From NCBI GenBank assembly GCA_944389075.1, contig CALXLA010000057.1, positions 1 to 64,000 on the forward strand: a stretch of DNA of 64,000 nt. Direction: 5' to 3'. The position numbers and the translations under genes are program-made. Shown here one piece after another: positions 34,450 through 37,592 of this stretch. Origin of the DNA: an uncultured Spirochaetaceae bacterium. GTDB taxonomy: Bacteria > Spirochaetota > Spirochaetia > Sphaerochaetales > Sphaerochaetaceae. How positions within the stretch are numbered: position 1 is the stretch's first letter; each line of letters starts with the position of its first letter. The notes under the pieces are model-generated. The model worked only from the letters and a program-made list of their open reading frames with translations, searched no databases and was not told the origin of the DNA.

Positions 34450-35817
34450 CTATTCTATCACATTCGGGAGCTTTTTCAGCTTCGCAATGAAGTGAGTCAT
34501 GAAGAAAATGGAAAGAATGAATGTGATAAGATCGCTTAATGGCTGTGCAAGCTCGACACCTCTGATGCCGATTAGTCCGGGAAGCACCAGCACGAGCGGT
34601 ATGAAGCATATTCCCTGACGGCATGATGCGAGAATAGTCGCCTCTGCAGCCTGTCCGGTGCTCTGAAGTCCCATGTTTGCCGTTGTCGTGATACCGGTAA
34701 GCGGTAGAACAGCAGCCTGGAAGCGCAGAGCCGCTGTTCCTATTTCAAGGACAACGGGGTCAGAAGACTGGAAAAGTGAGATGATCTCAGGCGCGAATAT
34801 AAAGCAGACAGAAGATGTAGCAAGCATAAGCAGAGTACCTACGGATGCTGTGAACTTCGTTGCCTGAAGGACCCTGTCGTAGCGTTTTGCGCCATAATTG
34901 AAAGATGCGACCGGCTGATAGCCCTGACCAAAACCAAGCATCACGGAAAAAGCGAACATGGTCACCTTCGTAGAGATTGTCATTGATGCGACAGCTGCAT
35001 CGCCGAAAGCTGCCGCTGATACATTTAGAGCTATCATCGCTATGCTTGAGAGGCCCTGACGCGCAAGTGTCGGAAGGCCTATGCGGATAATCGAAAGATA
35101 TACCTTGATATTCCTTGCAGCTTTCCCGGCGGAAATCCTCACACTGCTCTTCCCCATCATGAAGAACGCAAGAAGTATTATGAAACTGATGCATTGACTT
35201 ATAGCTGTAGCCATCGCAGCTCCGGCAGTCCCGAAGCCAAGGACAAAGATGAATATTGGGTCGAGCACGATATTCAGCAGCCCGCCAGTCGTTATGCCGA
35301 TCATTCCGAAAAGCGCTTTGCCCTCTGACCTGAGATAGTTGTTCATGACAAAGGAAAGGCACATGACAGGACAGCCATAGAATATGTATTCCGCATAAGC
35401 TGAGGCATATGGGAGAATCGTATCGGTTGCTCCCAGGAGAACCATGAGTTCATCTGTGAATGCGATACCAAGTACAGAGAGTGACAATGAGAGAATGAGA
35501 GCAAGGAAGAAGCCAGAAGAAGCTGTTACTGTCGCCGCCTCGTCTTCCTTGGCACCAAGCTGTCGAGACAGGATGTTGCCCCCTCCCATGCCGATCGTGA
35601 ACCCGATTGCCTGTATGATGGCCATTATCGAGAAAACGATGCCGACAGCACCGGCAGCACTCGTTCCAAGCTTGGCGACGAAATATGTATCAGCTGTATT
35701 ATAGATAGCTGAGACAAGCATCGTTATGATCGTGGGAACTGCAAGTCTGCCGATAAGAGAATGAACTGGTGTTTCCGTCATTTTCCTGTAATGCTGCGCT
35801 CTCTGTATATCATCCAT
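34450..35817 (-). CDS. MATE-family multidrug/cation efflux protein
   Basis: The 455-residue protein has about 12 membrane segments and typical MATE features (FVAKLGTSAAGAVGIVFSIMAI; GGGNILSRQLGAKEDEAA; FGQGYQPVASFNYGAKRYDR). It exports organic cations or drugs using a Na+ or H+ gradient. The ATG at 35817 is preferred over a TTG at 35826. An extended -10 (TGGTATAAT, 35834-35826 on the minus strand) ends 8 bases before it and no Shine-Dalgarno is present. It ends in TAG and is first in the MATE-manA-mscS-GH43 operon. Confidence 0.92.
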   Translation of the reverse strand: MDDIQRAQHYRKMTETPVHSLIGRLAVPTIITMLVSAIYNTADTYFVAKLGTSAAGAVGIVFSIMAIIQAIGFTIGMGGGNILSRQLGAKEDEAATVTASSGFFLALILSLSLSVLGIAFTDELMVLLGATDTILPYASAYAEYIFYGCPVMCLSFVMNNYLRSEGKALFGMIGITTGGLLNIVLDPIFIFVLGFGTAGAAMATAISQCISFIILLAFFMMGKSSVRISAGKAARNIKVYLSIIRIGLPTLARQGLSSIAMIALNVSAAAFGDAAVASMTISTKVTMFAFSVMLGFGQGYQPVASFNYGAKRYDRVLQATKFTASVGTLLMLATSSVCFIFAPEIISLFQSSDPVVLEIGTAALRFQAAVLPLTGITTTANMGLQSTGQAAEATILASCRQGICFIPLVLVLPGLIGIRGVELAQPLSDLITFILSIFFMTHFIAKLKKLPNVIE

Positions 35818-35819
35818 AG

Positions 35820-35848
35820 TTGCCAATTATACCACTTTCGGCTATCAT
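35820..35848 (+). promoter_or_regulatory. tRNA-Gly promoter, overlapping the divergent MATE promoter
   Basis: TTGCCA (35820-35825), a 17-base spacer and TATCAT (35843-35848) lie 10 bases before the tRNA. On the opposite strand an extended TATAAT (35831-35826) serves the MATE operon, so the two promoters share the same roughly 30 bases. Confidence 0.7.
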
Positions 35849-35858
35849 CATCACAAGC

Positions 35859-35930
35859 GCGACCGTCATATAGTGGCTATTACCTCAGCTTCCCAAGCTG
35901 AAGATGCGGGTTCGATTCCCGTCGGTCGCT
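35859..35930 (+). tRNA. tRNA-Gly, anticodon CCC
   Basis: The cloverleaf folds fully. The acceptor arm is GCGACCG with CGGTCGC. The anticodon stem TCAGC/GCTGA encloses loop TTCCCAA, giving anticodon CCC. The T arm is GCGGG-TTCGATT-CCCGT, followed by discriminator T at 35930. CCA is not encoded; the following bases are TTTTCT and then an rfbB-like start codon at 35937. Confidence 0.95.
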
Positions 35931-35936
35931 TTTTCT

Positions 35937-36887
35937 ATGCCAAGAACAATCGCGATAGCAGGCGGTGCCGGATTCATCGGTATCGCTTTCACATATGAAG
36001 CGCTGAGGCACTATCCGGATGACCGGATCATCGTCTTCGACAAACTGACATATGCATCTGACAGGAATGCGCTTCTGGAAGCGGAGAAGGATAGCAGATT
36101 CAGATTCATCCTCGGAGATATATCTTCATCAGAGGACGTTAACAGCCTCTTCAAAGAAGAGCATCCGGACATAATCGTGAACTTCGCGGCGGAAAGCCAT
36201 GTTGACAGATCCATAGAAAGCCCTGCGCTGTTCATGAGAACAAATGCAGAAGGGCCAGCCGTGCTTATGGCAGCTGCTGTGAAATATGGACTTGAACGTT
36301 TTCATCAGATCTCAACAGATGAGGTCTATGGTGACCTTCCTATAGATAGCAATGAATCATTCACGGAAGACTCACCTATCCGGCCAAGCTCTCCATATGC
36401 CGCATCGAAAGCTGCAGCGGATCATCTTGCGCTTGCATTCATGCGTACATATGGATTGAATGTCACGATAACACGCTGCTGCAACAATTACGGGACTCAT
36501 CAGCATAGCGAGAAATTCATACCGACAGTCATACGCAATGCCATCGCAGGCAATCCAATACCTATCTACGGAACTGGAAAGAACATAAGGGAATGGATTA
36601 CGGCAGAAGACCATGCAAAGGCAGTGCTTGCCGTAATTGACAGAGGAAAGCCGGGGGAAATCTACAACATCGGATCCGGCATCAGGATAAGCAATCTTGA
36701 ACTCGCAAGAACCATTCTCTCACTTCTGGGGAAAGATGATAGTCTTATAAGCTTCACAACAGACAGGAAAGGCCATGACAGAAGATACAGCATATCGTCT
36801 GATAAGATAAGGAACGAACTTGGCTGGGCACCTGAAGATGATTTCCTCAGCTCCCTTTGGAAGACTGTCAGATGGTATGCCGGTTGA
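35937..36887 (+). CDS. rfbB: dTDP-glucose 4,6-dehydratase-like NAD-dependent sugar epimerase/dehydratase
   Basis: The 316-residue extended SDR has the NAD motif GGAGFIG (9-15), the RmlB-type triad T127-D128-E129 in STDEVYG, Y154 and K158 in YAASK, and CCNNYG and HQHSEKFIP stretches that bind the nucleotide sugar. It converts dTDP-glucose to the 4-keto-6-deoxy sugar used in surface glycans. Its ATG is only 6 bases after the tRNA-Gly 3' end and has no Shine-Dalgarno. The upstream in-frame ATG at 35904 lies inside the tRNA. No rmlA, C or D genes are nearby. Confidence 0.92.
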   Translation: MPRTIAIAGGAGFIGIAFTYEALRHYPDDRIIVFDKLTYASDRNALLEAEKDSRFRFILGDISSSEDVNSLFKEEHPDIIVNFAAESHVDRSIESPALFMRTNAEGPAVLMAAAVKYGLERFHQISTDEVYGDLPIDSNESFTEDSPIRPSSPYAASKAAADHLALAFMRTYGLNVTITRCCNNYGTHQHSEKFIPTVIRNAIAGNPIPIYGTGKNIREWITAEDHAKAVLAVIDRGKPGEIYNIGSGIRISNLELARTILSLLGKDDSLISFTTDRKGHDRRYSISSDKIRNELGWAPEDDFLSSLWKTVRWYAG

Positions 36888-36923: not shown

Positions 36924-37592
36924 ATGAATAAGGTACCGGAAAACCCTTCAAAAAACCGGATCGGGGATTTCTCTCCCCTGACGGTTGTATCATCACTTAT
37001 CGTCACGATGTATCTGATAGCCAATCTGATGGCTGTGAAGATCATCTCGATCGGCCCCTTCACGCTCTTCGATGCGGGGACTATCACATTCCCTATCGCA
37101 TACATGCTCTCTGATGTGCTTGCGGAGATATGGGGATACAAGACTGCAAGGAAAGTGATCTTCCTTACATTTGCCTGCAATGCCCTGCTTGTCATATTCA
37201 CATCGATAGGGACGATTCTTCCCTATCCTGACTATATGGAAGGAATACAGCAAGCGTATAGTACCATCTACACATATGTGCCGCGCATCGTAGGGGCTTC
37301 GCTTATTTCATTCCTTGCAGGAGATCTTATCAATGCGAAGATACTTGTCGCTATGAGAGACAGATCAGCAGACGGGAAGATGCTCTGGCTGAGGACAATA
37401 GGCTCTTCTGTTGCAGGATATCTCATCGATTCCGTGCTTTTCGTGCTTATCGCATTCACGGGAACAAGCCCTGCATCTGACCTTTTGTCGATGATTCTCG
37501 CTCAGTACATCGCGAAGATAGCCCTTGAGGCACTGTTCGGCACCCCGCTTGCCTATGCTGCGATAAGATACATAAGAAGGAGGTGGGGATGA
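36924..37592 (+). CDS. yhhQ: Queuosine precursor transporter (YhhQ/VUT family)
   Basis: The 222-residue protein has about six membrane helices and the family pattern seen in TMYLIANLMAVKII, DAGTITFPIAYMLSDVLAEIWGYK and LIDSVLFVLIAFTG. Members take up preQ0, preQ1 or queuine for tRNA queuosine. Its stop overlaps the next gene (TGATG), and that gene looks like the queuine-lyase group of radical SAM proteins, which supports a queuine-salvage unit. Confidence 0.9.
   Translation: MNKVPENPSKNRIGDFSPLTVVSSLIVTMYLIANLMAVKIISIGPFTLFDAGTITFPIAYMLSDVLAEIWGYKTARKVIFLTFACNALLVIFTSIGTILPYPDYMEGIQQAYSTIYTYVPRIVGASLISFLAGDLINAKILVAMRDRSADGKMLWLRTIGSSVAGYLIDSVLFVLIAFTGTSPASDLLSMILAQYIAKIALEALFGTPLAYAAIRYIRRRWG

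Follow-up and report, generated by a model that had tools for sequence, protein, structure and literature searches.

A tRNA gene as the candidate source of the 5′ end of a near-leaderless rfbB message in a Sphaerochaetaceae bacterium

How can a protein-coding gene be expressed when its start codon follows a tRNA gene almost directly? This question is raised by an rfbB-like gene in an uncultured Spirochaetaceae bacterium, found in the window analysed here, which is the whole 64,000-nucleotide stretch of contig CALXLA010000057.1. The window belongs to a MAG of 2.23 Mb in 60 contigs (95% complete), referred to below as G000. According to the original prediction, the upstream tRNA-Gly(CCC) serves as a removable leader, and RNase Z cleavage at its 3′ end would leave an rfbB mRNA with at most six leader bases. 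The sections below examine the junction itself, its history in the genus, and the way in which such a message might be made and translated.

Anatomy of the tRNA-Gly(CCC)–rfbB junction

The proposed order of tRNA end, six-base spacer and start codon, with no Shine-Dalgarno (SD) sequence, was confirmed by ARAGORN and by the sequence (Table 1). CCA is not encoded in the tRNA gene, and the discriminator is the U at 35930; a U in this position is normal for bacterial tRNA-Gly. The rfbB product reaches 412.6 bits against TIGR01181 (cut-off 365.1), with a match that begins at residue 5. A later true start was also sought and is excluded, since the nucleotide-binding motif GGAGFIG (the Rossmann glycine motif) begins at residue 9.

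Table 1. Positions of the features discussed in the text (window coordinates unless another contig is given)
Feature	Position	Strand	Basis or remark
MATE transporter gene, divergent	34450–35817	-	ATG at 35817
tRNA promoter TTGCCA, 17-base spacer, TATCAT	35820–35848	+	promoter scan and comparison with G053
tRNA-Gly(CCC)	35859–35930	+	ARAGORN; RF00005 genus search; RNA fold
Spacer TTTTCT	35931–35936	+	whole predicted rfbB 5′ leader if cleaved at the discriminator
rfbB-like dTDP-glucose 4,6-dehydratase gene, 316 aa	35937–36887	+	TIGR01181
Queuosine precursor transporter family gene	36924–37592	+	next after rfbB
tRNA-Pro(GGG), followed by TA and the ATPase ATG	G000:C11:28942–29015	-	L222/L205

The tRNA promoter is the only good plus-strand promoter that a scan detects upstream of rfbB, which agrees with the claim that no other is visible. 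A plus-strand scan between the tRNA and rfbB yielded no terminator or terminator hairpin, and scans of the junction found neither an SD before the rfbB ATG nor a -10-like hexamer 4–9 bases in front of it. A separate promoter whose transcript would include a usable ribosome site was likewise sought, and none was found. By these scans, the two genes share a promoter with no terminator between them, as in dicistronic tRNA–mRNA units. In the predicted fold of the junction RNA, the tRNA arms and the acceptor stem are retained, and the rfbB AUG is held in a weak helix only. A plasmid search matched only the tRNA and distant rfbB sequences, and the relatives of rfbB include Candidatus Ornithospirochaeta stercoravium.

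The divergent MATE gene has a TATAAT (35826–35831) 8 bases upstream of its ATG, and is therefore probably leaderless as well. The divergent promoters overlap (35815–35848), such that the minus-strand -10 of the MATE gene sits between the -35 and the -10 of the tRNA promoter. The queuosine precursor transporter gene has its own promoter-like site, which ends 7–9 bases before the ATG, and no SD; judging from this site, it is probably independent of the tRNA transcript.

The junction in related species and its recurrence at a second gene

A search for tRNA-Gly(CCC) in 48 genomes of the genus retrieved an identical (100%) tRNA in eight, and rfbB adjoins it in seven of these. In the sister species G053, the junction is again six bases long (TTTCCT in place of TTTTCT; loci L064 and L171), the hexamers and spacing of the tRNA promoter are identical, and the two genomes are collinear across the ~16 kb compared. 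Their RfbB proteins share 70% amino acid identity, with a dN of 0.21, a saturated dS of 1.71 and a dN/dS of ~0.12, indicative of purifying selection. Because the gap is kept in G053 at a dS of ~1.7 and a low dN, the junction must have persisted for long enough to saturate synonymous change, during which the protein was constrained. Moreover, the same tRNA and six-base gap in a well diverged second species argue against a chance arrangement or a fault of assembly.

The spacing that the original prediction singled out for comparison is thus kept in the sister species but not beyond it. In the other five of the seven genomes (G052, G044, G051, G046, G018), a hairpin-T terminator comes after tRNA-Gly, and beyond it lies an extended -10 (TAATAT, TAGAAT or TAAAAT) at a distance of exactly 6 bases from the rfbB ATG; both the terminator and the separate promoter are absent from G000 and G053. 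In these five relatives, rfbB is predicted to be leaderless from its own promoter, and the position of the -10 implies that the gene was already compatible with leaderless expression. In a neighbouring clade (G049, G004, G060, G050; L291–L294), tRNA-Gly(CCC) and a terminator are followed by an ORF of ~450–470 aa in place of rfbB, which starts M..NLKGLDLTEG and resembles a membrane transporter.

A second tight junction in G000 joins tRNA-Pro(GGG) to the gene of a 308-residue ABC ATPase of the oligopeptide/dipeptide/nickel importer (Opp/Dpp) type. The pair is present in eleven species, and takes the tight form in six of them (G000, G053, G049, G004, G050 and G060, with gaps of 2, 5, 6, 6, 7 and 7 bases), none of which has an SD before the ATPase gene. 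In the remaining five (G052, G044, G051, G046, G018), the gap is 17–22 bases long and carries GGAGG. The ATPase starts align at the same Met across species, and the dN/dS between G000 and G053 is 0.17, again a sign of purifying selection. On the rpoB tree, the tight form occurs in two groups that flank the SD-led clade, which is itself the sister of G000 and G053; the tree thus allows either an ancestral tight form with a single later gain of an SD, or two separate gains of the tight form. Altogether, in none of the eight tight junctions (two of rfbB and six of the ATPase) was an SD or a -10 at 4–9 bases found, and six of the eight spacers start with U.

The original prediction had further coupled the synthesis of sugar nucleotides to the way in which the tRNA is transcribed and matured. 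This idea is unsupported, as the second gene is an unrelated transporter, and no rmlA gene scores over the curated cut-off in G000, an incomplete MAG, though an rfbB-like dehydratase is present. Given this rmlA result, RfbB is taken no further than a possible contributor to dTDP-rhamnose supply.

Tight junctions are rare within the genome, where only two of the ~44 tRNAs collected in a survey of G000 have one, and the others mostly precede ordinary terminators or SD-led genes. G000 does not display a mitochondrial-type genome-wide organisation, in which most mRNAs are flanked by tRNAs. The tight form is confined to a single clade and, within it, to two orthologous pairs of genes, and no tight junction was found among the 36 tRNAs of the outgroup G014. 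Close start codons with SD-like sites follow tRNA-Thr(GGT), tRNA-Trp, tRNA-Thr(TGT) and tRNA-Arg(CCG) in G000 (L043, L057, L060), as in ordinary tRNA–mRNA operons. Other apparent tight junctions (L031, L209, L225, L283, L295) were rejected as spurious frames, frames with a better conserved later start, or TTG-start frames. Since G000 also has isoacceptors with UCC for tRNA-Gly and UGG for tRNA-Pro, one might guess that tRNA-Gly(CCC) and tRNA-Pro(GGG) are partly redundant, and hence free for coupling to other genes.

Leaderless expression in the host and the proposed excision mechanism

Whether a message released in this manner could be translated depends on the host. In a sample of the window and twenty G000 stretches of up to 20 kb (L185–L204), comprising 372 ORFs whose first ATG could be used, 9.4% of the first ATGs have a -10-like hexamer that ends 6 bases before them, versus 2.0% of the internal ones (p 1e-11). 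None of the 49 ORFs with a -10 at 6–7 bases has an SD, as opposed to 187 of the 323 others (58%; p 3e-17); an enrichment is also seen for matches to the -35 (40–53% versus 14–17%). With a -10 at this distance, transcription is expected to start at the ATG or within one base of it. Leaderless promoters are thus apparently common in G000, and this signature is a strong though indirect sign that leaderless messages can probably be translated by the host. In a published survey, leaderless genes were reported in 6 of 18 Spirochaetes genomes, at an average of 3.9% (PMC3160421), and compared to this figure the genus is probably leaderless-rich for its phylum. Leaderless mRNAs have been defined as those with a 5′ leader shorter than 10 bases (PMC4681348); the rfbB leader would have 6 if the cut falls at the discriminator.

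The enzyme required is encoded in G000, where an RNase Z gene matches TIGR02651 over the cut-off (332 bits), and at most 4 of the 44 tRNAs encode CCA. RNase Z enzymes cut CCA-less precursors after the discriminator. In the proposed mechanism, tRNA-Gly(CCC) and rfbB would form a single transcription unit driven by the tRNA promoter, RNase P would mature the tRNA 5′ end, and a single RNase Z cut right after the discriminator would both finish the 3′ end of the tRNA and set the 5′ end of the mRNA. The freed rfbB mRNA would start with 5′-p-UUUUCUAUG, near-leaderless and monophosphorylated, and the ABC ATPase mRNA with p-UAAUG. Such a message could then enter the leaderless initiation route on which many genes of this organism seem to rely, and the tRNA would do the work of a promoter, an untranslated leader and a ribosome-binding site. 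B. subtilis RNase Z is described as being activated by uracils that lie downstream of the discriminator (Pellegrini 2012, as cited in PMC4919913), and leaderless messages of E. coli are reported in a review to need a 5′ phosphate for their translation (PMC9031893, citing Giliberti 2012 and Krishnan 2010).

Some points weigh against this mechanism. The predicted leaders of 2–7 bases are longer than the 0–1 base expected from the leaderless promoters of the host, and the same review notes that leaderless translation decreases as the start codon moves away from the 5′ end and that extra 5′ bases can reduce it (PMC9031893). In addition, transcription could stop in part at the T-run behind the GC-rich acceptor stem. 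The small number of gene pairs with the tight form, and the ordinary terminators or SD-led genes behind most tRNAs of G000, count on this side as well.

Three other explanations have to be considered. One of them is that ribosomes read rfbB on the transcript before any processing, either by SD-independent initiation at its own start codon or from an in-frame ATG at 35904 inside the tRNA, which would add 11 residues. The frame is indeed open from that ATG (327 aa), and also in G053, where the tRNA and the gap length are the same; however, the codon lacks an SD and is hidden in the stable fold of a tRNA that also needs maturation. Furthermore, the six ATPase gaps keep no frame with their tRNA, and since they are not a constant frame apart, a fusion by read-through from inside the tRNA is improbable, which leaves translation of the unprocessed transcript as an unlikely account. 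It is also unlikely that the juxtaposition is an accident that followed the loss of the terminator and the promoter, leaving rfbB barely expressed and the arrangement without function. The solitary position of rfbB and the lack of an rmlA over the cut-off would fit such decay, but dN is low against a saturated dS for both rfbB and the ATPase when G000 is compared with G053, which has both junctions in common with it, and tight gaps occur in two gene pairs and six species. Finally, a separate rfbB promoter inside the tRNA body is quite improbable: the D-arm TATAGT matches a -10 in 5 of 6 positions and its -35 in 3 of 6, yet this is a weak match in total (8/12) to what is conserved tRNA-Gly sequence, it would leave a ~55-base leader without an SD, and a -10 at 4–9 bases is seen in none of the eight tight junctions, as against one at exactly 6 bases in all five relatives that have a separate promoter.

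We therefore favour excision. The view of the tRNA as a removable leader draws support from the two-species junction, the tRNA-Pro case, the leaderless promoters of the host and its RNase Z gene; from the anatomy, conservation and recurrence of the junctions, the host signature and the RNase Z gene we infer co-transcription, cleavage at this bond and translation of the product. We consider it probable that RNase Z excision of tRNA-Gly releases a near-leaderless, 5′-phosphorylated rfbB mRNA, as a bacterial counterpart of tRNA punctuation. A broader reading, to which we give even chances, is that the lineage uses RNase Z excision of tRNAs as a recurrent and maintained maker of leaderless mRNAs, and that genes next to tRNAs in the genus switch among three modes of expression, namely an own leaderless promoter, an SD-led start after a tRNA, and release from a tRNA.

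Comparison with known systems

Leaderless mRNAs, tRNA–mRNA operons and mitochondrial punctuation are each known, and as far as the open-licence literature shows, their combination in a bacterium is the new part; no bacterial precedent for leaderless mRNAs made by tRNA excision was found in that literature, which does not prove that there is none.

Bacterial tRNA–mRNA dicistronic operons include thrU-tyrU-glyT-thrT-tufB and tRNA-Trp-secE. As in these, a protein gene behind a tRNA would share the promoter of that tRNA and be parted from it by tRNA processing, but the downstream genes of those operons carry a UTR with an SD, as do further tRNA–mRNA cases in G000 itself (tRNA-Thr, tRNA-Trp and tRNA-Arg). 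The promoter-made leaderless mRNAs of Actinobacteria, Deinococcus-Thermus and some Spirochaetes similarly lack an SD and have their start codon at the 5′ end or close to it, and the host displays the corresponding -10 signature. Their triphosphate end, however, is set by initiation, while here tRNA processing would set a monophosphate end. MazF-cleaved mRNAs of E. coli resemble the proposed message in that an endonuclease makes them leaderless post-transcriptionally, although MazF, a stress toxin, leaves 5′-OH ends and the enzyme proposed here is a housekeeping tRNA maturase. The leaderless-mRNA model for MazF is itself disputed, according to the review cited above (PMC9031893).

If the excision mechanism is true, a single housekeeping cut yields both a tRNA and a translatable message, and the gene therefore needs no promoter, UTR or ribosome-binding site of its own. 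There would then be naturally occurring messages in which RNase Z governs both the level and the 5′ monophosphate, and an ATG-started ORF 0–8 bases after a CCA-less tRNA would provide a genome signature for screens of bacteria. It would also suggest that leaderless-tolerant translation is a precondition.

There is also a close likeness to the tRNA punctuation model, which Ojala, Montoya and Attardi are said to have put forward for animal mitochondria in 1981. There, as proposed here from the sequence, tRNA excision makes the 5′ end of an mRNA that is leaderless or nearly so, and the tRNA 3′ end is processed by an RNase Z (ELAC2 in humans). The anatomy read at both G000 junctions is of this kind, in that the start codon lies within a few bases of the tRNA and the scans give the downstream gene neither its own promoter nor an SD. 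Unlike in mitochondria, the arrangement involves individual genes on a bacterial chromosome, with a promoter at each tRNA, leaders of 2–7 bases and a host that also initiates at SD sequences. If excision does take place, a bacterial chromosome thus displays a step that mitochondrial genomes took in full.
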